DNA of 46,987 nt from an uncultured Bacteroidota bacterium (GTDB lineage: Bacteria; Bacteroidota; Bacteroidia; AKYH767-A; JABDAW01), in the NCBI GenBank assembly GCA_903911135.1, contig CAIWCG010000279.1:1-46987 (forward strand), read 5' to 3'. Under the pieces are notes generated by a model, which was not told the origin of the DNA, ran no database searches, and worked only from the letters and a program-made list of their open reading frames with translations. Positions 4,764 to 46,987 of the stretch are shown here, one piece after another. How positions within the stretch are numbered: position 1 is the stretch's first letter; each line of letters begins with the position of its first letter. A program made the translations under genes and the position numbers.

Positions 4764-4910
4764 AATTCATAACTCATAATTTATATCCCCTAACTCTTAT
4801 AAGGAGCCTATGTTTTCCTCTAATCCAAGCTACGTCTCGCTATCCGCTGTTGCTGTTACATCCCCATTTCCGTTACAAAGCGGAGGGCTGCCGCTACTAT
4901 CGGGGTTATA
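4764..4910 (+). repeat. ~145-bp dispersed element, copy 1 (diverged)
   Basis: This copy carries the landmarks of the family: an ATTCATAACTCATAA-type lead-in, AAGGAGCCTAT at 4801, CGCTATCCGCTGT in the middle, and GGGCTGCCGCTACTATCGGGG near the end. It lacks the terminal GACGGCAG...TTCGAAA part seen in the other copies and runs directly into an orphan T9SS tail. It is the most degraded of five copies in the window. Confidence 0.8.
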
Positions 4911-4913
4911 ATT

Positions 4914-5114
4914 GATGACATTTTTTCCATCGTGTATCCATCGAATGAACCATGCATCATAACGATTCGGGATATGCTGTCAAACGAACTGATTAGCAAA
5001 GAGTTCATCAATTCCACCACGATAAATACAGATAATCTGCCTCGAGGAATTTATCTTTATGAAATAAAAAACAGCAATGGAACCATTAAAAATGGCAAGG
5101 TCCTGAAGATGTAA
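4914..5114 (+). pseudogene. orphan T9SS type A C-terminal tail (gene remnant)
   Basis: The reading frame contains IVYPSNEP, then TIRDMLSNELISKE, NTDNLPRGIYLYEI and a terminal GKVLKM. This is the layout of a Por-secretion-system sorting domain (YPNP..., xDxxG..., LxxGIYxY, GKxxK). Only about 65 residues remain, with no signal peptide or cargo domain, and the 5' side is the degraded dispersed element. A sorting tail alone cannot work, so this is most likely the 3' relic of a larger secreted-protein gene. A GTG at 4932 could be used but has no convincing ribosome binding site. Confidence 0.7.
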
Positions 5115-5274
5115 TGGTGGCTTTTTTATGATTTATTAATCAACGATGCTTAAGATTCAATCTCCAAAACTATCCCAACAATATTTACTCTATCCTGGCT
5201 TCTTACATAAGATTTCAGAACGAATGATTTCCCAAAAATAATTACTGGATTCCCCAAAGCATTTTGCTGCTTTC

Positions 5275-5735
5275 CAATCCAGCAAATCGGTTTTCCAATC
5301 CAGCAAACCCGAAATTCAATCCACCAAAATGGTTTTTCAATCCACCAAAACCGATTTTCAATCCACCGAGCCAAAAAATCCAGCGTTTTCCCGTTCAAAT
5401 CATTCCATCTTTTCAGAAATCCACTCCACCGACCGAGAAATCCTTTCCAGCAAGTGCGAAATCCATTCCAAGAAGTGAGAGATCCACTCCACCGACCGAG
5501 AAATCCATTCCAGCAAGTGAGAAATCCATTCCAACAAGTGCGAAATCCACTCCAAGAAGCGAGAAATCCATTCCACCGACAAAAATACCATTCCAACAAT
5601 CGAGAAATCCACTCCAAAAAGTTCGTTTCGCACTCCACCGACCTGTTGGCGCAATCCACCAAAGTCCTTTTCCAATCCACCAAATCAAAATTACATCTCA
5701 CTCGATTCGTTTTCCAATCCTCTTCCATCCTATGA
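5275..5735. repeat. 21-bp tandem array 1 (about 22 units)
   Basis: Units begin with CAATCCA, CATTCCA or CACTCCA and repeat every 21 bp. The outer units (CAATCCACCAAA type) differ from the inner ones (CATTCCAACAAGTGCGAAAT type). The length of 461 bp fits 22 units minus one base; I locate a single 1-bp deletion at about 5569-5588. The 21-bp period keeps several frames open on both strands, which explains the long but implausible open frames here. The array lies between the divergent genes at 4629 and 5931. Confidence 0.93.
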
Positions 5736-21327: not shown

Positions 21328-21483
21328 CTTTTTCCTGCGTTCCTGTTGTTGAATCTTGCCGCAAATGTACTAACTAATCCAATAATCCAGCTTTTCCCCA
21401 TCCCCGTTTCACCCATTTACCCTTCAAAAATGAACTTTTCGCCTCACTATCATAACTCATACTTCATAACTCATAACTTTTTT

Positions 21484-21624
21484 AAGGAGCCTACGGTTTC
21501 TACTCGTATCATGGCCAGTCCCGCTATCCGCTGTAGCCGCTGCATTCCCATTACTTATACAAAGCAGCGGGCTGCCGCTACTATCGGGGCTAGGTTTTGA
21601 CGGCAGCTACTTCGAAATGACTTT
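21484..21624 (+). repeat. ~145-bp dispersed element, copy 2
   Basis: It starts AAGGAGCCTA, preceded by a CATAACTCATAACTTTTT lead-in from about 21450. It contains GGCCAGTCCCGCTATCCGC, the hairpin arms AGCCGCTGC and GCAGCGGGCT, CTACTATCGGGGCTAG, and ends GACGGCAGCTACTTCGAAA. Array 2 begins about 37 bp downstream. The gap between divergent ribF (start 21327) and the permease at 22238 holds this element, array 2 and a GC-rich structured element, with no gene. Confidence 0.92.
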
Positions 21625-21660
21625 TAACCGGTCAAATTTGTTGAAATGAGGCTTCCAGCC

Positions 21661-21828
21661 TATCGGTTGGAAGCTCCAATCTATCGGTAGGAAGCTCCAA
21701 TCTATCGGTGGGAAGCTCCAATCTATCGGTTGGAAGCTCCAACCTATCGGTGGGAAGCTCCAATCTATCGGTAGGAAGCTCCAATCTATCGGTTGGAAGC
21801 TCCAATCTATCGGTTGGAAGCTCCAACC
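21661..21828. repeat. 21-bp tandem array 2 (8 units)
   Basis: Eight units with no indel. Each contains CTATCGG, a variable dinucleotide, then GGAAGCTCCAA. Variation is confined to a few positions. The centre GGA-AGC-TCC is a small inverted repeat, extended to TTGGA-AGC-TCCAA in several units. A diverged unit precedes the array (GCTTCCAGCC), and an inverted CCGATAGG piece ends it. Confidence 0.95.
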
Positions 21829-26146: not shown

Positions 26147-26475
26147 TCCGCTTCTATGGAACCCAAGGTCGTGTAATTGGAACCCAATGTCGTGTAATTG
26201 GGTCCCAATGTCGTGTAATTGGGTCCCATAGTCGCGTAATTGGGTCCCATAGTCGTGTAATTGGGTCCCATAGTCGCGTAATTGGGTCCCATAGTCGCGT
26301 AATTGGGTCCCATAGTCGCGTAATTGGGACCCACGGTCGTGTAATTGGGTCCCATAGTCGTGTAATTGGGACCCAAGGTCGTGTAATTGGGTCCCAAGGT
26401 CGTGTAATTGGGTCCCATAGTCGTGTAATTGGGTCCCATGGTCGTGTAATTGGGTCCCAAGGTCGAGTATCTTGG
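26147..26475. repeat. 21-bp tandem array 3 (14 full units)
   Basis: Fourteen full units in strict 21-bp register from 26168 to 26461, plus degenerate units at both ends. Each unit has GTCGTGTAATTGGGTCCCA with C/T and terminal dinucleotide variants. TGGG-T-CCCA is a small palindrome. No indel was found in about 300 bp. No copy of the ~145-bp element is next to it. The remaining 26476-26600 shows no feature I can name. Confidence 0.95.
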
Positions 26476-28422: not shown

Positions 28423-28437
28423 TTTAATGATTCCAAT

Positions 28438-28573
28438 AAGGAGCCGATATCCTCTTCTCGTCCCAACTGCGTCCCGCTATCCGCTATAGCCGCTGCATCC
28501 CCATTGCCGACACAAAGCAGCGGGCTGCCGCTACTATCGGGGCTATGCTTCGACGGCAGGTTGCTCGAAACAG
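28438..28573 (+). repeat. ~145-bp dispersed element, copy 3
   Basis: It starts AAGGAGCCGATATCCTCTTC, 15 bp after the dehydrogenase stop. It contains GTCCCGCTATCCGCTATAG, the hairpin arms AGCCGCTGC and GCAGCGGGCT, and GGGGCTATGC, and ends GACGGCAGG...CTCGAAA. Array 4 follows 90 bp downstream. This copy has no ATTCATAA lead-in. Confidence 0.92.
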
Positions 28574-28663
28574 CTTTCATCCATATCATCCAAAACTCAG
28601 ACAAAAAGAACTTTTCTAAGCAAGTCTTAGCCTTTTAGTATCCGAAAAAACTCATTTAGCAGT

Positions 28664-28894
28664 TTGGAAAGTCATTTTCCAACCTTGGAAAGTCATTTTC
28701 CCACCTTGGAAAGTCATTTTCCCACCTTGGAAAATCATTTTCCCACCTTGGAAAGTCATTTTCCCACCTTGGAAAGTCATTTTCCCACCTTGGAAAATCA
28801 TTTTCCCACCTTGGAAAATCGTTTTCCCACCTTGGAAAGTCATTTTCCCACCTTGGAAAATCATTTTCCCACCTTGGAAAGTCATTTTCCAATC
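28664..28894. repeat. 21-bp tandem array 4 (11 units)
   Basis: Eleven units with no indel, each reading TTGGAAA(G/A)TCATTTTCC then CACC or AACC. GGAAAA-TCA-TTTTCC is an inverted repeat within the unit. The array lies between convergent genes (dehydrogenase and rpe). All three frames on both strands stay open for long stretches. Nothing further was seen in 28895-28995. Confidence 0.96.
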
Positions 28895-30765: not shown

Positions 30766-32250
30766 ATGGCAAATCTTTGGGTTAAAAAATCAATTGCTTC
30801 CCTCCAAGGAGAAGCATCAGAAGAAAAAGAAAGTTTAAAACGCACACTCGGGGCTCGCTCCTTAGTGGCCTTAGGAATCGGTGCTATCATTGGCGCAGGA
30901 CTCTTCTCCATCACAGGCGGTGCAGCAGCCAATAATGCCGGCCCTGCTGTCACCATCTCCTTCGTAATAGCAGCCGTAGCATGCGCTTTTGCAGGATTGT
31001 GCTATGCAGAATTTGCCTCCATGATTCCCGTTGCAGGCTCTGCCTATACTTATTCCTATGCCACCATGGGCGAATTTATTGCCTGGATAATCGGTTGGGA
31101 TTTAGTCCTCGAATATGCCGTAGGAGCAGCCACAGTTTCCATTTCATGGTCCCGCTATTTTGTAAAACTGTTAGAGGGCTACGATATTCATCTCCCCGCC
31201 TCCATGACCTTGTCCCCCTTCGATACCGCCAAGTTAGCCGATGGTACCGTTGTCCATGGGATGATAAATTTCCCTGCAATATTCATCATCGTTTTAATGT
31301 CTTCCTTATTAATAAAAGGAACCCGCGAGTCTGCCGCAGTCAATAATTTTATTGTAGGATTAAAAGTAACAGTAGTTTTAATATTTATATTTTTAGGCTG
31401 GGGATATATCAATACCGCCAACTATCATCCATACATCCCAGAAAACACAGGCGACTTTGGAAGCTTTGGCTGGAGTGGCATTGTCCGTGCTGCCGGAATT
31501 ATTTTCTTTGCCTACATCGGTTTCGATGCTGTATCCACTGCCGCCCAAGAAGCTAAAAATCCAAAGCGAGACATGCCTATCGGTATTTTAGTTTCCCTTG
31601 CCATCTGCACAGTCTTGTATCTTTTCTTTGCCCACGTCATGACAGGTGTCACCAGCTATACCTCCTTTCAAGGTGCCGACGGCATTGCACCAGTAGCAGT
31701 AGCCATCGATCACATGGGCCCTGCCGATGCAAATGGCGTCATCACACCGGCATACCCTTGGTTAAACAAAGCAATTATCATCGCCATTCTGGCCGGCTAC
31801 TCCTCCGTTATTATGGTCATGTTAATGGGTCAATCACGCGTTTTCTTCTCCATGAGCAAAGATGGATTATTACCAAAAATATTTTCCCGAGTACATCCAA
31901 AATTCGGCACTCCAAGCAAATCAAACTTGTTGTTTATGCTCTTCGTAAGTTTATTTGCGGCCTTCGTCCCTGCCCGTGTAGTAGGCGAAATGACCAGCAT
32001 CGGCACCCTCCTCGCATTCGTTTTAGTATGTGTAGGAGTTATGGTTCTACGCAAAACCCAACCCAATCTTCCACGTGCATTCAAAACACCATTAGTTCCC
32101 TTAGTACCAATTCTTGGCATCCTATCATGTTTAGGAATGATGGTATCCTTGCCTGGCGACACCTGGCTGCGGTTAATCATTTGGTTAGCCATCGGCTTTG
32201 TAATTTATTTTGGATACAGCATCAAAAACAGCAAATTGAACAAGGAATAA
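30766..32250 (+). CDS. APC-superfamily amino acid permease (cationic-type, YfnA-like)
   Basis: 494 residues with a soluble N-terminus of about 30 residues and 12-14 transmembrane helices. Helix 1 reads ALGIGAIIGAGLFSITGGAAA with the GxG substrate loop. GLCYAEFASMIPVAGSAYTYSYATMGE follows, and FFAYIGFDAVSTAAQEAKNPKRDMPIGI is the helix 6 region. This fits the cationic amino acid transporter branch better than the shorter permease at 22238. It probably imports amino acids by proton symport. Monocistronic, with promoter and terminator visible. Confidence 0.92.
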   Translation: MANLWVKKSIASLQGEASEEKESLKRTLGARSLVALGIGAIIGAGLFSITGGAAANNAGPAVTISFVIAAVACAFAGLCYAEFASMIPVAGSAYTYSYATMGEFIAWIIGWDLVLEYAVGAATVSISWSRYFVKLLEGYDIHLPASMTLSPFDTAKLADGTVVHGMINFPAIFIIVLMSSLLIKGTRESAAVNNFIVGLKVTVVLIFIFLGWGYINTANYHPYIPENTGDFGSFGWSGIVRAAGIIFFAYIGFDAVSTAAQEAKNPKRDMPIGILVSLAICTVLYLFFAHVMTGVTSYTSFQGADGIAPVAVAIDHMGPADANGVITPAYPWLNKAIIIAILAGYSSVIMVMLMGQSRVFFSMSKDGLLPKIFSRVHPKFGTPSKSNLLFMLFVSLFAAFVPARVVGEMTSIGTLLAFVLVCVGVMVLRKTQPNLPRAFKTPLVPLVPILGILSCLGMMVSLPGDTWLRLIIWLAIGFVIYFGYSIKNSKLNKE

Positions 32251-32282
32251 TCCTCCCGAAAACAGCTATTCAACAAACCGAA

Positions 32283-32319
32283 GAGGGCAGATGTGCACAA
32301 AAACATCTGCCCTCTTTCA
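32283..32319 (+). terminator. rho-independent terminator
   Basis: A 13-bp perfect stem, AGAGGGCAGATGT pairing with ACATCTGCCCTCT, followed by a short TTTC tract, 33 bp after the permease stop. Confidence 0.82.
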
Positions 32320-32368
32320 TTCCCAGCTTTGCCTCCCCACCTAATTCCTAATTTATAATTCCTAATTC

Positions 32369-32513
32369 TTTTAAGGAGCCTATATCCTCCTCTCGTATCA
32401 TGGCCAGTCCCGCTATCCGCTGTAGCCGCTGCCTCCCATTTCCGAAACAAAGCAGCGGGCTGCCGCTACTATCGGGGCTAGATATGACGGCAAGTGGCTT
32501 CGAAAGGACTTTT
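32369..32513 (+). repeat. ~145-bp dispersed element, copy 4 (left arm)
   Basis: It starts TTTTAAGGAGCC after an AATTCCTAATTTATAATT lead-in. It has GGCCAGTCCCGCTATCCGC, the AGCCGCTGC/GCAGCGGGCT hairpin, CTACTATCGGGGCTAG, and ends GACGGCAAGTGGCTTCGAAA. It is nearly identical to copy 5, which lies inverted beyond array 5. Confidence 0.95.
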
Positions 32514-32529
32514 GGCAAAAATTTTGGAA

Positions 32530-32718
32530 CCCCTCGTTCATCCAGGGGAGCCCCTCGTTCATCCGGGGGAGCCCCTGATTCATCCGGGGGAGCCCCTCGT
32601 TCATCCGGGGGAGCCCCTGATTCATCCGGGGGAGCCCCTGATTCATCCGGGGGAGCCCCTGATTCATCCAGGGGAGCCCCTGATTCATCTGGAGGAGTCC
32701 CTGATTCAACTGGGGGAT
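32530..32718. repeat. 21-bp tandem array 5 (9 units)
   Basis: Nine units with no indel. Each reads CCCCTGATTCATCCGGGGG or CCCCTCGTTCATCC..., then AG. Across the unit boundary GGGG-AG-CCCC forms an inverted repeat, in some units CAGGGG-AG-CCCCTG. The array is the central part of a structure with inverted ~145-bp arms on both sides. Confidence 0.96.
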
Positions 32719-32720
32719 AA

Positions 32721-32864
32721 AAGTTTTTTCGAAGCTACCTGCCGTCAAAACTAGCCCCGATAGTAGCGGCAGCCCGCTGCTTTGTTTCGGAAATGGGAGG
32801 CAGCGGCTACAGCGGATAGCGGGACGCAGATGGGACGAGAAGAGGATATAGGCTCCTTAAAAGA
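32721..32864 (-). repeat. ~145-bp dispersed element, copy 5 (inverted right arm)
   Basis: In reverse orientation it begins AAGGAGCCTATATCCTCTTC, has CGTCCCGCTATCCGC, the same hairpin arms, CTACTATCGGGGCTAG, and ends GACGGCAGGTAGCTTCGAAA. Against copy 4 it differs mainly in the stretch just before GTCCCGC. Together the two form long inverted repeats around array 5. Confidence 0.95.
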
Positions 32865-32865
32865 G

Positions 32866-32930
32866 TTATGAGTGATAAGTTATGAATTATGAGTGCCACC
32901 AACTCATAATTCATAACTCATCACTCATAA
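32866..32930. repeat. 28-bp near-perfect inverted repeat
   Basis: Left arm 32866-32893 begins TTATGAGTGATAAGTTATGA. Right arm 32903-32930 is its reverse complement at 27 of 28 positions. The loop is 9 bp. The arms are built from the same ATGAGT/ATGAATTA motifs that lead into the ~145-bp element elsewhere. The structure ends 8 bp from the stop of the minus-strand T9SS gene at 32939 and could fold in its transcript end, although no T-run follows. Confidence 0.9.
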
Positions 32931-32938
32931 TTTGAGCT

Positions 32939-35900
32939 TTAGTTGCTCTTGATTATTTTCTTCGAGAGTCGTTTGTCCTTGCTTTGTGCGGTGATGAAAT
33001 AGATTCCATCGGGGTGGCTGCTTAGGTCTATCTTGTTGCTAAGTACAGAAACGTTCTTAAGCGTTTCTTCTAGGATTCTTGCTCCCATCATGTCGTAAAC
33101 AACTACTGTAACGTCTTGGGCGTCATTGAAACTCATGTCGAGATTGAATATTCCCTTTGATGGATTCGGATAGACGGTCATCACGTTTTCGGAGGCTATG
33201 GTAGGTAGGTCGAGGTAATACCCAACGGTGAACTGCTGATACATGTCGTGGCCGAAATCCATTCCGAAACTCCTGAATATGGTTCCGCTGGAAGCACGGC
33301 GGAAGAAAAGGTGCCCAACTGTATTGGTTTGGTCTGGCCAGTTGGTCATGCCATCGCCTTCCTTGTAGTTCGGGTCGGTAGGGTCGGTGGCACCCAAGTC
33401 GTCAGTGAAATGGAAAGTATAGCATCCATTCAGGAAGTTTACGGTGTCTTTATAAACCGTAGATGGGGCAAGCGAGGCGGCAGTGCGCTGCCACACCACT
33501 GTTCCGGCATCATTGGTGATGGTGTAGGAACCTTCGTTGTTTCCATACTGGTTGTAGTGGGCATCGGTCATCAAATCGAACACGATGCTGTTCGGATATT
33601 GTGGAGGCATGGAGTAGGTGCTTTCCATGTAGTCGTTATATGGGTATTGGTCAACTCCTCCGTTAGGATTGCTAACGGTAGCCTTGAACTTATTGCCACT
33701 GCTCCAGGCAAAGGTAGGCAACTCCACATCAACGGTATCAAGGAAAGCCAAACTGCCTGTCCAATGATAGACGCTTTGTGGACCGCCCTCTATACCATAG
33801 GTAATGGTGAGGGAAGTGAGCGTGGTAGAACCCGTGTTTTTTATGGTAATCTTAGGAAAGGAACAGATTGGGTTAATTCTTTTATCTACATCCTTTGAAG
33901 ATGGCGACTTGATGTCCCACACTGCTGCGTCCAATGTAAAGTTCGGAGCACCATAAGATATCAATTGGGTTTCGATGACATAAACCGCACCACCGCCTTC
34001 AACGCTTTGATAAGGATCAACAGTGTAATGCAGGTTGACGGTATCGCCTGGAGTTACATAAGGTGTCAGCTCCCAATCCCAAGTATAGACAGGAGCGCCA
34101 GGGCACCAGTTGGCGCGGTTATAAATCCAAGTTCCACCTTGAGGATAGAGTGGATTGAAACTGCAGTTGTTTCTCCATAAAAGTTTGCTGTACCGTTGCG
34201 TGTTATTAATGAATAGGAAATGGTTTCTTGGGCAGAACTCAAGACAGTTGAGACCATCTTCACCATGACCGGTGGTACGCAGTTTATATCTTGTGTTGAT
34301 GGCAAGAGGATCGATGGTAAGTGTTTTAGGCACCAAGAAGTTTCCGATGCCATTGTATCCCGGGGCACCATTCCAAATATTCTTTACACTGAATGGATCG
34401 CGAGGAGGAACACCTAACTTGAACTCGAAACTTACATCCAGAAGTTCTTGCCAGTTGCCGGCAGAGAGATAAACGGTATCATGCAGCAAAGGCTTGTAGT
34501 CGCTCACATCTTCAGTCCAGGTAAAGCCGGCTCCAAGATTAAGATTGATGCCATAAGGAGTGATGAATCTGCCTATCTCGAAACGGTTGACTATTTCGAA
34601 AGGTGCGCTGTAATAAGGAGTGTGGATGAGGTGCAGAGTATTGTCTGGGGTTATGAATATAGAGTCGATGATTACACCGGCGCTATTGTATATATAACGA
34701 TAATAAGTTGACCAAACCAATAAGGTATCCGTTGGAACCAAAGGATGGCTGAAATCGAGATACTGAACGATTTGGAAAGGAGCATTCTCAACCGAATCGA
34801 TGGTCAACACCGAATCGATATGAGAAGTGAAAGAATCCTGTTCGAAGACGATATAAGGTCGTGCATTTATCGAATTGAAGTTACGGAACAGATTAGGCCC
34901 TGTTATTTGCGGATCCGTTGGTACTCCCATTAAAGTGCCATTGTTTCCGCCTAAAGTACTTGCATCGCTAACGGTAGAATAGGAGTTGTCATTGCATTGA
35001 TAATAAAGAATCAGATTCGAACTGAATGGATGAGTAGCATCCAAATCCTTGAACATATAAGCCTGAATGGTAGCTTGGTCGAGCTCCTTGTTCCATACAG
35101 CAAATTCATCTAGATTTCCACCGTAATAATAATCATTGGCTGCTCCGGAACCAAAATAGAATTTGTTTATGCCATACATCCTTTTGATCTTGGCAGTTCC
35201 GGAGAACAAGACATTTCCATTGACATAAGCCTTCATTATTCCGGTGGCAACATTTTTTGTAAAGGTCCAATAGTTCCACTTTCCTTCCCAATCTGCAGCG
35301 GGCACAGCAGCATTGACCCGGTCATAACTTCCGGTTCCAGAATTTCCGCAATCCCAATACACCGAACCATCCGACCAAGGCATGTGCACATTCAACACAC
35401 GATGTCCTTGTGCATCATAAGCCTCGAAAGCAGAATTGTTCTGTGGTTGCAAGGCAGGATTACCATAGCACCAGAAGGCTACTGTTATAAAACTATCCAA
35501 GGATGCGGCAGCGGCAGCTGGAACATTCACTTGATCCACTCCGCTGAATTTCAATGAACGGTCATCTCCTGAAGAATAGATGCCTGAAGCAAAGTTGGCG
35601 GTATCAGCTAAGATCTTAGTATAGACACCTGGAGATGAGTTTGTATAACTGATATCAATGACCAAATTAGAAACTCCATCCCAGCTAAAGGGCTGTGTAA
35701 GAAAAATAACTTGCCAACCTATTGTTGGGAATGAAACATTATTGTCATAAGCCAATGAAAGCCCGGTTGATTCATAAGAAGAAGGCGAAAGGGCTGTTAA
35801 GGAGGAATTCTTAAATCGAATGGTAAGATCACTTAAATCAGTGCCATTACCATAGATATTTAATCTTAGGTTGGTTATGTTTCCGGCATGCAATCCGGCA

Positions 35901-36421
35901 GCGGTCAGCTCTGATGCCTTCCAAAGATATTGCGTCCTGGTTTGTGGATTGCTTGCATTGAAAGGATATATCGATGTAATGCTCCCAGTTCCAATAGTCG
36001 CTGAACCTCCATTGATGATATTGTCATAAACAATATTATAATGCCAAACTGGATAATAAGAATAAGACGGAGTGTTCATGTATTGCACACTGTCTGGCGA
36101 ATTGCCACCAATTCTATAACTTGGTGCTGACAGCAAGGTAGAATCGTATTGATGGGTATGTTGGTATAAATAGGTATAGGTAAGGTAATCCCATTCGCCA
36201 CAGGCTGGATTTTGTAGGGAATTGCATTTCAGCTTGTAATGCATCAGTATCTTTTCATACCTGTTTGTGTCAGGCGGAAAGATAAAGAACGAATCTTGCG
36301 AAGACCCGAATGTAAAGGTCTGCACATTGATGGTATCACCAATTTGCGACTTGCTGCTGTTATATGCAAGAACAAGGATGATGATGACAAGTAGGTTTCT
36401 GAATAAGGTATTATTTTTCAT
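32939..36421 (-). CDS. large PNGase F-related, LamG-containing T9SS-secreted protein
   Basis: 1160 residues. Signal peptide at about 1-26. The N-terminal part has HYKLKCNSLQNPACGEWDYL, typical of the peptide-N-glycosidase F-related group of Bacteroidota. A LamG/concanavalin-like domain spans about 293-455 (FITVAFWCYG ... NLDEFAVWNKEL). The middle contains CLEFCPRNHFLFIN and GTWIYNRANWCPGAP, again PNGase F-like. The type A sorting tail starts VYPNPSKGIFNLDM and ends SKKIIKSN. It should be exported by T9SS and act on or bind glycans or glycoproteins outside the cell. Catalytic residues cannot be confirmed by eye, so the enzyme activity is a family inference. Confidence 0.85.
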   Translation of the reverse strand: MKNNTLFRNLLVIIILVLAYNSSKSQIGDTINVQTFTFGSSQDSFFIFPPDTNRYEKILMHYKLKCNSLQNPACGEWDYLTYTYLYQHTHQYDSTLLSAPSYRIGGNSPDSVQYMNTPSYSYYPVWHYNIVYDNIINGGSATIGTGSITSIYPFNASNPQTRTQYLWKASELTAAGLHAGNITNLRLNIYGNGTDLSDLTIRFKNSSLTALSPSSYESTGLSLAYDNNVSFPTIGWQVIFLTQPFSWDGVSNLVIDISYTNSSPGVYTKILADTANFASGIYSSGDDRSLKFSGVDQVNVPAAAAASLDSFITVAFWCYGNPALQPQNNSAFEAYDAQGHRVLNVHMPWSDGSVYWDCGNSGTGSYDRVNAAVPAADWEGKWNYWTFTKNVATGIMKAYVNGNVLFSGTAKIKRMYGINKFYFGSGAANDYYYGGNLDEFAVWNKELDQATIQAYMFKDLDATHPFSSNLILYYQCNDNSYSTVSDASTLGGNNGTLMGVPTDPQITGPNLFRNFNSINARPYIVFEQDSFTSHIDSVLTIDSVENAPFQIVQYLDFSHPLVPTDTLLVWSTYYRYIYNSAGVIIDSIFITPDNTLHLIHTPYYSAPFEIVNRFEIGRFITPYGINLNLGAGFTWTEDVSDYKPLLHDTVYLSAGNWQELLDVSFEFKLGVPPRDPFSVKNIWNGAPGYNGIGNFLVPKTLTIDPLAINTRYKLRTTGHGEDGLNCLEFCPRNHFLFINNTQRYSKLLWRNNCSFNPLYPQGGTWIYNRANWCPGAPVYTWDWELTPYVTPGDTVNLHYTVDPYQSVEGGGAVYVIETQLISYGAPNFTLDAAVWDIKSPSSKDVDKRINPICSFPKITIKNTGSTTLTSLTITYGIEGGPQSVYHWTGSLAFLDTVDVELPTFAWSSGNKFKATVSNPNGGVDQYPYNDYMESTYSMPPQYPNSIVFDLMTDAHYNQYGNNEGSYTITNDAGTVVWQRTAASLAPSTVYKDTVNFLNGCYTFHFTDDLGATDPTDPNYKEGDGMTNWPDQTNTVGHLFFRRASSGTIFRSFGMDFGHDMYQQFTVGYYLDLPTIASENVMTVYPNPSKGIFNLDMSFNDAQDVTVVVYDMMGARILEETLKNVSVLSNKIDLSSHPDGIYFITAQSKDKRLSKKIIKSN

Positions 36422-36994: not shown

Positions 36995-38020
36995 CTATAT
37001 AACCGTTTTTGGTATCCCGAACAGCTCCAGCAAAAGATGATTCGATTTATCAGTAAGCACGTAGTTTGATGGCGGCTGTTTTTTTATCAAATCATATCGA
37101 ATCAACTTAGTCAAATGCTTCTCGAATCCATCTGCCGAGAGTCCGCTAAAACCGCGCAGTTCTGAACTGGTTGCCTTGCCTGCGTTATACAAAAACAATA
37201 TTTCGGTGGTAATTGTATGCCCCAAAGAATAATTTGCTTTACGTGGCAAATGCTTTCGCAAAACACGACATAGGATTGCTGAATTATAGTGATCACTGAT
37301 TATTTTCAACGGTAGCGAATGTGTATCCTCCAACCGAGCATTGGATATAGCTTCATTGCTTTTTGTGGCAGCCGAATTTTGCTCCTTCACGGCATCCTCA
37401 AAATCAGCATAAAAGCTATAAAGCGTGTTTTGCCCAGAACCGTTTTTAATATAATCATCCAAAGCATTAAGTAGTGCTTTCTCGAAAACCGAGTATAGTA
37501 AAGCACCTCCATTTGCATTAATATTGATAATTGGCAAATCTGCAAAAACTGTATTTCCACCTTGCATCGTTTCCTCTAAGCCTCCATCAGCTTTGTTTCC
37601 ACCTTGCATCGTTTCCGCTAAGCCTCCATCAGCTTTGTTTCCACCTTGCATCGTTTCCGCTAAGCCTCCATCAGCTTTGTTTCCACCTTGCATCGTTTCC
37701 GCTAAGCCACCTTTAGCTTTATATCCACCTTGCATCGTTTCCGCTAAGCCTCCATTGGCTTCATTTCCACCTTGCATCGTTTCCGTTAAGCCTCCATTAG
37801 CCTTTTTCCCGCCAGAGATAATTTCAGGTAACCCTCCAATCAACTTATTTGAACCCGTCCTATTTTCAGGCAAGTCCTTGTCATCATTGTTTAAGGCAGC
37901 CTTATTTTTAAGGTAAGCAATTTCGTTCTTCATATCCATCAGGTGCTTCAGCAAGATATGAATAATCTTTCGTTCCTCTATGGTCAGTTTTTCCGCTTCG
38001 TTATCTTTATTCATAATCAT
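36995..38020 (-). CDS. unrecognised protein with a 14-residue tandem repeat and a C-terminal winged-helix-like region
   Basis: 341 residues. Residues 1-45 form a charged helix (LTIEERKIIHILLKHLMDMK) with coiled-coil character. Residues 49-162 hold about nine 14-residue repeats of the form GLAETMQGGNKADG, degenerate at both ends. Residues 175-260 look helical. The last 80 residues (EILFLYNAGKATSSELRGFS, then HLTKLIRYDLI and YVLTDKSNHLLLELFG) resemble a winged-helix DNA-binding fold. No signal peptide. The start may be at 38020 or two codons later. The gene lies between an integrase remnant and mnmE. I do not recognise the family; a DNA-binding role is a guess from the C-terminus. Confidence 0.72.
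   Translation of the reverse strand: MIMNKDNEAEKLTIEERKIIHILLKHLMDMKNEIAYLKNKAALNNDDKDLPENRTGSNKLIGGLPEIISGGKKANGGLTETMQGGNEANGGLAETMQGGYKAKGGLAETMQGGNKADGGLAETMQGGNKADGGLAETMQGGNKADGGLEETMQGGNTVFADLPIININANGGALLYSVFEKALLNALDDYIKNGSGQNTLYSFYADFEDAVKEQNSAATKSNEAISNARLEDTHSLPLKIISDHYNSAILCRVLRKHLPRKANYSLGHTITTEILFLYNAGKATSSELRGFSGLSADGFEKHLTKLIRYDLIKKQPPSNYVLTDKSNHLLLELFGIPKTVI
37535..37876. repeat. in-frame 42-bp tandem repeat (2 x 21 bp)
   Basis: On the plus strand, units run from CACCTTGCATCGTTTCC through CTAAGCCTCC to the next. Three are near-identical (about 37594-37719) and the rest increasingly diverged. The 42-bp period is exactly twice that of the intergenic arrays. The amino acid pattern is kept through the degenerate copies, so here the repeat is under coding constraint. 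Confidence 0.9.
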
Positions 38021-40531: not shown

Positions 40532-41930
40532 ATTCCACTACCACTCGTTTCACCAATGATTCCTTGTCGCTCTGGAGGTGAACCAGGTAGATTCCTTTGC
40601 TCCAACGGGAGAGGTCTATGGTTGATTGAGTGGAGGTGGATGGTGCTTGATGATACACCGTATTCCCCAACACATCGGTTATTCTTAATTCATAATTTCT
40701 AATTCCTGATTGATTGGAGATGGTGATGTTATTACTTGAAGGATTAGGGAAAACCAAAACCTTGCTATCATTCTTTTGTGCTTCAGGTATGCCCGTATCT
40801 GCTGGTAATTCTATAAAAGCACCATTCATTATACAATGAAGAACATTCCACGAAGATACATTGCTTCCTAAAGAATCAATACTGAAAATCGTATAATTTG
40901 TAGTGCCAAATATTTTACCATTACCTCCCTGTAAAAGGCTACCATATGTAAGAAATGTAGAATTATAAATATAGGATAATGTATTGTTACCAATATCAAA
41001 ACTAAAAATTTTCCCAGCATCTGTAGTCCCATATAATTTACCATTTGTTGCTTGTATCAATGAAGAAAAGTTTGACAATGAAGTTTCATTATATAAATCA
41101 GTGTAAGAGTTAGTAGTAGGGTCAAAACTGAAGATTACACCTTTACCAGCTGAAAAACCAACTGTATCACCGCCATAGGATGTAGTACCATATAATTTGC
41201 CATCATTTCCTTGAATCAAATTCCCTTTTGGCGCCCAGCCAGTTAACTTATTAAAATTATAAACATCGGAACATGTATTTGTTGTAGGATCAAAACAATA
41301 AATTGTTCCACCTCCTGGATGTATGAAAGAAGTATCACCACCTGAATAAGTTACACCATATAATTTACTGTTGTTTGCCTGAACTAAACTTCCTTTTGGA
41401 TTTGTTCCTGTAGATTTATTTTGAAATTCATACAAATCAGAATAAACATTAGTTGCGGGATTATAGCTAAAAATAACTCCACTTGTATCAATACCACCTA
41501 AATAAGTAGACCCATATAATTTCCCGCTACTTAATTGTATTAGAGAACCTGTTGGGTATAGCCCGTGAACTTTATCAAAATTATATAAATCGTTATATGT
41601 GTTATAGACAGGATCATAAGAAAACAATACACCTGATCCGGCGGCAGAGGATTGACCGGAATGATGTGTTGTATCAGTGCCACCATAATATAATAATCCA
41701 TATAATTTACCATCGCTAGCCATTAATAGATTCCCAGTTGGCATTATCCCAGTCAATGTATCAAATGAATACAATGTCTGGAATCCGGTCCCATCTTCAT
41801 TAATTTTAATAATTGAACCGGAATTATTTATGCCACAATTATAAGTTAAACCCCATAGTTGTGGTATTTGTGCCTTCATTGTTATTCCTGCAAGGCATAG
41901 CAGGATTAAGATTGTAATTTTAGTTTTCAT
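40530..41930 (-). CDS. GloVer-repeat T9SS-secreted protein
   Basis: 466 residues from the ATG at 41930 (MKTKITILILLCLAGITMKA signal peptide); an in-frame start 51 codons upstream would precede the signal peptide with hydrophilic sequence and is unlikely. Residues about 25-395 hold eight or so GloVer-type repeats (GSLVQANNSKLYGVTYSGG, FSFDPTTNSYTDLYNF). The type A tail begins VFPNPSSNNITI and ends LVKRVVVE. It is probably T9SS-exported. Odd point: in the tail, the codons for GIRNYELRI match the intergenic AATTATGAATTA-type motif. Confidence 0.88.
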   Translation of the reverse strand: MKTKITILILLCLAGITMKAQIPQLWGLTYNCGINNSGSIIKINEDGTGFQTLYSFDTLTGIMPTGNLLMASDGKLYGLLYYGGTDTTHHSGQSSAAGSGVLFSYDPVYNTYNDLYNFDKVHGLYPTGSLIQLSSGKLYGSTYLGGIDTSGVIFSYNPATNVYSDLYEFQNKSTGTNPKGSLVQANNSKLYGVTYSGGDTSFIHPGGGTIYCFDPTTNTCSDVYNFNKLTGWAPKGNLIQGNDGKLYGTTSYGGDTVGFSAGKGVIFSFDPTTNSYTDLYNETSLSNFSSLIQATNGKLYGTTDAGKIFSFDIGNNTLSYIYNSTFLTYGSLLQGGNGKIFGTTNYTIFSIDSLGSNVSSWNVLHCIMNGAFIELPADTGIPEAQKNDSKVLVFPNPSSNNITISNQSGIRNYELRITDVLGNTVYHQAPSTSTQSTIDLSRWSKGIYLVHLQSDKESLVKRVVVE

Positions 41931-46844: not shown

Positions 46845-46878
46845 GTCAGGCATTTCTCCCCAAAACCTCCTCCTCCAT

Positions 46879-46987
46879 TTATAATTCATAATTCCTAATT
46901 TATAATTCTCCTTTGGGGGCGCCCCCTTTTAGCTGCCAAGGGAAAAAAGGCAGCTAAAAGAGGTCGGGGTGTTGCGTGGGTTCGCTA
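46879..46987. repeat. AT-rich motif and GC-rich structured element (runs off the window)
   Basis: ATAATTCATAATTCCTAATTTATAA-type repeats lead into GGGGGCGCCCCC and a perfect 11-bp hairpin TTTTAGCTGCC/GGCAGCTAAAA at 46927-46959. The GGGGGCGCCC edge next to the AATTATGAAT motif matches the element at 21990-22104 in the opposite orientation. The right edge is outside the window. Confidence 0.5.

Follow-up and report, generated by a model that had tools for sequence, protein, structure and literature searches.

The closest described architecture to the locus analysed here is that of BrickBuilt and MITEPgRS of Porphyromonas gingivalis, in which the repeat measures 23 nt in BrickBuilt and 41 nt in MITEPgRS/464 (PMC4596501). 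BrickBuilt is defined by its 23-nt repeat, and its terminal repeats are ~12 bp long and IS5-like (GAGACCTTTGCA). The end pieces of our locus match a different catalogued family, the Flavo-1 RNA (RF01705; Weinberg et al., 2010, PMC2864571), to which the literature consulted assigns no function. Flavo-1 copies in F. psychrophilum show no sense or antisense preference with respect to transcribed regions and often lie outside them (PMC9723704), a pattern more in keeping with a DNA element than with an RNA gene.

The locus lies at positions 32369-32862 of the window, by which we mean the whole stretch of 46,987 nucleotides that was analysed. As the original prediction had described, two inverted arms of ~145 bp enclose a repetitive centre. 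The left arm (32369-32513, minus strand) carries Flavo-1 at 32402-32483 and the right arm (32719-32862, plus strand) carries it at 32749-32830, in each case with the 5' end toward the array and the 3' end outward. Both matches, at 56.1 and 55.5 bits with the RF01705 covariance model, lie above the Rfam gathering cut-off of 42. The array between them (32526-32717) has a period of 21 bp with the consensus GGAGCCCCTGATTCATCCGGG, 9.1 copies and 91% matches. By BLAST, the two arms share 91% identity over 144 nt, and the best ungapped stretch of one against the other spans 107 nt at 94% complementarity with 205 nt in between. Folded as a single strand, 32340-32900 is predicted to form one long hairpin of -388 kcal/mol, as compared with -199 +/- 7 in shuffles (z = -26.7), an energy far outside chance, and by this calculation a large hairpin or cruciform would be energetically possible. 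Beyond the arm ends AAGGAGCC on the left and GGCTCCTT on the right lie AT-rich tails of ~7-bp repeats, at 32339-32368 (minus strand, e.g. AATTAGG) and 32863-32894 (plus strand, e.g. TTATGAG). Directly past the right arm, 32866-32930 holds a 29-bp near-perfect palindrome (97%, 7-nt loop) made up of AT-rich 7-bp repeats; similar tails are found at the ends of many arms, and alone at 215-253, 40681-40711 and 46877-46907. By inspection, the locus is flanked on the left by a permease-like gene on the plus strand (30766-32250) and on the right by a secreted protein on the minus strand with an apparent T9SS sorting tail (32939-36421), so that the locus fills a convergent gap. Open reading frames inside the locus are mechanical only.

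The source genome (3.80 Mb in 296 contigs) holds at least 149 Flavo-1 matches, with 150 of 1220 candidates scored, and many of these matches lie at contig ends. We sampled 60 stretches which, together with the window, amount to 0.90 Mb; since these stretches were picked around matches, densities in the sample are biased upward. An iterated profile located 138 arms in this sample, and TRF yielded 171 merged array loci of period 21n (168 rows of period 21, 75 of period 42, 31 of period 63 and few others). The placement of arrays around arms is one-sided. Of 103 arms, 80 had an array no more than 300 bp from their 5' end, and of 130 arms, 3 had one that near their 3' end; spacings ranged from 1 to 275 bp, and self-similarity at lag 21 peaked ~100-300 bp upstream of arms and was near background downstream. 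Among the 136 arrays away from contig edges, 85 had no arm, 34 had one and 17 had two. Nineteen arm pairs were less than 900 bp apart, with gaps of 187-687 bp, and all 19 faced outward; no same-strand or convergent pair within 900 bp was seen in the 0.90 Mb. If orientation were random, this outcome would have a probability of 0.25^19 = 4e-12. A diverged arm subfamily keeps the same rule at L080:11752-11907 (left arm minus, right arm plus). A crude ORF and hexamer caller gave neighbours for 18 of the two-armed loci: 10 are in tandem gaps, 8 in convergent gaps and none in a divergent gap. Immediately 5' of several arms (e.g. L033_8051_+, L041_6824_+ and L042_3200_-) there is a recurrent GC-rich hairpin (GCTGCGGCGAAAAGGC...GCCTTTTCGCCGCAGC), which is either terminator-like or another part of the element.

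As one half of its refuting condition, the original prediction had named the lack of a second two-armed locus in any relative. Among the matches listed for ~250 other genomes none was indeed seen, but the 18 further two-armed loci in the sampled part of the source genome answer the question behind that condition. In a genome of another genus (G019), 50-bp tandem arrays occur near a Flavo-1 match (L118:6738-7740). Three records titled Bifidobacterium breve, Candidatus Rokubacteria and Chlorobiaceae (L137, L161 and L193) encode a Bacteroidota-like sigma factor 61-62% identical to that of the window, and may be mislabelled bins. Against named genomes, the sigma factor of the source organism reaches at most 63% identity, in a collection from which its own record may be missing.

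Three pairs of composite loci are copies of each other over their full length: L035:17069-17597 with L052:9191-9836, L042:6045-6689 with L068:12478-13093, and L073:9361-10027 with L066:9411-10080, the last including a copy cut by a contig end. In all three, homology runs across the arms, both junctions and the array, while the flanks are unrelated. The two-armed form is therefore a dispersed unit bounded by its arms. Because arms and junctions align on both sides of the copied composites, the two-armed state in these cases is older than the copying. Homology between copies extends as far as the arm terminus TAGGCTCC(TTA) with a variable AT-rich tail, and no further; by eye, the arm ends read TAGGCTCCTTA. 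The original prediction suggested that the two-armed form may be the complete unit and the one-sided loci its decayed or partial versions. Its recurrence at 19 loci and the whole-unit copies, although there are only three such pairs among the 19, bear out the first half of this view. Mere decay is not supported for the second, since a one-armed unit has been duplicated as well: array, junction and arm at window 28454-28848 recur at L035:13358-13755 with 89% identity. One-armed units are thus units too and need not be decayed.

The duplicated one-armed unit consists of an arm at 28424-28580 (minus strand) and a 21-bp array at 28664-28890, and the window contains further variants. In a second one-armed unit, an arm at 21463-21639 (minus strand, Flavo-1 at 21513-21595) is accompanied by a 21-bp array at 21660-21826. 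A diverged arm at 4784-4920 (minus strand), which scores under the Rfam cut-off, has two 21n-type arrays (5271-5367 and 5415-5621) on its 5' side, and a 21-bp array at 26168-26459 has no detectable arm. The gene at 36995-38020, with a weak winged-helix match (HTH_45), contains an internal 42-bp (14-residue) tandem repeat at 37554-37809 and may thus be an example of a coding gene that harbours a 21n array; a ~76% identical relative over 1 kb lies at L072:1586-2622.

The near identity of the two window arms had been taken to imply that they were recently duplicated or underwent gene conversion. In the context of the family, their similarity is ordinary and does not show either event at this locus: the arms are 89% identical over the profile, the partner arm ranks 3 of 119, and ~20 other copies outscore it, at up to 96% by BLAST. 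Over all pairs, identity is 0.832 within a locus and 0.788 otherwise (permutation p ~0.0003), a modest excess; shared descent of the unit, gene conversion and a constraint on pairing could each account for it. Mean pairwise identity is ~94% in the Flavo-1 core and ~73% in the remainder of the arm, which indicates that the core is constrained and that the arm family is not very young. The 15 hairpin pairs of the core are nearly invariant across 120 copies. In the copied composites, an arm is not closest to its counterpart in the other copy (ranks 15-115 of 119). Arms may therefore have been swapped or gained independently; the ranking fits an old, star-like burst as well as exchange between arms.

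The arrays are a layer separate from the arms, and probably the older of the two. In a second genome of the genus (G001, mean ~52% amino-acid identity to the source genome), 764 kb hold 182 period-21n loci, or 24 per 100 kb, and no match to the arm. A third congener (G002) has 21n arrays plus one of 22/44/66 bp (L107, L108), and a genome of the same family (G003) has few arrays, one of them of 22/44 bp (L110); the preferred period may therefore shift between lineages. No 21n arrays were found in other families of the order, each represented by one or two stretches. A general Bacteroidota trait was considered and rejected: the 1.43 Mb taken from 80 named genome records contained 14 period-21 rows, all of at most 3.5 copies, and no array of period 42 or 63. 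For the most part, units at different loci bear no relation to one another (145 clusters from 171 arrays). A rotation-aware Gibbs search for a hidden common motif found essentially none, with 6.49 bits in the source genome and at most 6.34 in shuffles, and 7.07 bits in G001 and at most 6.89 in shuffles. Coding for 7-residue repeats was also discarded, since codon-position variation showed no bias (0.491 observed, 0.505 permuted). Sub-periods of 7 or 10-11 bp within units were not found, and inverted repeats showed no clear excess as a general feature of armless arrays. Dyads are modestly enriched in units, with stems of at least 5 in 31 of 93 as compared with ~10 in shuffles.

At 29 conserved gene neighbours between the source genome and G001, 23 lacked arrays, four had one in G001 only, one in the source genome only, and one in both. 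Where only G001 had the array, the gap in the source genome was at most 45 bp, and in the reverse case the G001 gap was 16 bp. Arrays are therefore gained and lost as insertions that measure hundreds of bases. In one orthologous gap (L067:5252-5448 and L221:13753-13924), a 21-bp array occupies the same place in both genomes with unrelated unit sequences. We tentatively entertain, as one possibility short of an even chance, that the genus carries hundreds of period-locked intergenic minisatellites with a unit of 21 bp (two helical turns) whose sequence is free and which are replaceable at a conserved position. Either a dedicated process would write or maintain them from an arbitrary seed, or the period itself would be the function through DNA phasing, and the Flavo-1 arms in this genome would be parasites or carriers.

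We think it rather probable that this locus represents a full copy of a dispersed DNA element, non-coding, non-autonomous and MITE-like, that has the Flavo-1 arms as its ends. The unit would read inverted arm, junction, 21-bp minisatellite, junction, arm, here placed between two convergent genes, and the arms would be the ends of the mobile unit, each with a near-invariant hairpin-forming core and its 3' end always outward. Units, including those made of an array and one arm, would spread by copying into new intergenic sites, and an enzyme supplied in trans would presumably recognise the Flavo-1 core or its hairpin. We infer transposition as the copying mechanism and the arm core as the recognition site. 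Several features are those expected of a MITE. Inverted repeats stand at both ends of 19 loci, the array units of the interior show no codon-position pattern, and in the three composite pairs homology at unrelated sites ends at the inverted repeats. The contrast between at least 149 Flavo-1 matches in the source genome and no arm match in the two same-genus genomes (G001, G002) or the same-family genome (G003) speaks for a lineage-specific expansion. Against this reading, no consistent target-site duplication was seen by eye in the outer flanks, where ragged AT-rich tails blur the ends, and a genome-wide search of the Y1_Tnp family found no transposase with matching ends. An autonomous parent was looked for between outward arms 0.9-6 kb apart; the two cases contained no recognisable transposase among genes read by eye. 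No copies occurred in phages, plasmids or viral contigs.

The main rival to this reading holds that the 21-bp arrays are resident and that a Flavo-1 hairpin element inserts alongside them in a fixed orientation, a two-armed locus being an array that was hit once on each side. It would explain why a congener is rich in 21n arrays and has no arms, why most arrays away from contig edges in the source genome (85 of 136) are armless, why the distance from arm to array is so variable, and why the nearest relative of an arm in a copied composite is not its counterpart in the other copy. If the two sides were filled independently, however, then ~9 two-armed arrays should be seen among the 136, and 17 were. 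Insertion would also require a rule that always directs the 3' end away from the array, and the alignment of arms and junctions on both sides of copied composites favours whole-unit copying. We favour the MITE-like element and regard separate insertion beside resident arrays as somewhat unlikely, if still a substantial competitor.

The arms might instead act as transcribed structures, such as a two-way terminator or a pair of small RNAs between genes, with the array as a spacer and selection keeping their placement and orientation. In favour of this stand the cataloguing of Flavo-1 as a structured RNA, the near-invariant core hairpin, and the place of the window locus in a convergent gap, a class that is over-represented at 8 of 18. 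Yet 10 of the 18 loci lie between tandem genes, ordinary terminator-like hairpins already adjoin the element (e.g. 32278-32318, by eye), Flavo-1 has no strand preference relative to F. psychrophilum transcripts, and the congener G001 does without arms. The hairpin pairs never vary and so offer no covariation either way. We judge a role in transcription improbable. More improbable still, to the point of being very doubtful, is a system of the REP/RAYT type, in which a Y1 (HUH) transposase would mobilise the arms as REP-like hairpins. To REP and REPIN sequences (PMC3116915, PMC3733652) the likeness is one of resemblance only: high-copy intergenic hairpins, often in inverted pairs. Here, by contrast, arms of ~145 bp enclose a long tandem array, and a link to a Y1 transposase is absent. 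The sole Y1 gene of the source genome is broken and has no arm beside it, and two genomes with multiple Flavo-1 copies (G050 and G056) lack any Y1 match. That decayed gene, which is IS200-like, lies at L031 (G000:C203:27321-27678) and is followed by a small hairpin.

With the MITE-like element as the preferred reading, Flavo-1, a widely catalogued "RNA" family, would gain a concrete second identity, that of a terminal piece of a mobile DNA element. The arrays, in turn, form a genus-level intergenic set with a constant 21-bp unit length and almost no shared sequence. We found nothing relevant on period-21 arrays in the literature, and no minisatellite process that accounts for constant length with free sequence. 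Compared with Flavo-1 as catalogued, the family here is present in at least 149 copies, turns its 5' end toward a 21-bp array and is paired outward. Like BrickBuilt and MITEPgRS, the element is a non-coding intergenic element of Bacteroidota in which a minisatellite lies between end pieces with inverted ends, and it occurs in multiple copies with one-ended forms common. Unlike them, it shares no 23-nt or 41-nt repeat, its period being 21n, and by eye it has no IS5-like terminal repeat, its arms being ~145 bp long and carrying Flavo-1. Above all, it differs in the diversity of its array units, which are unrelated at most loci.
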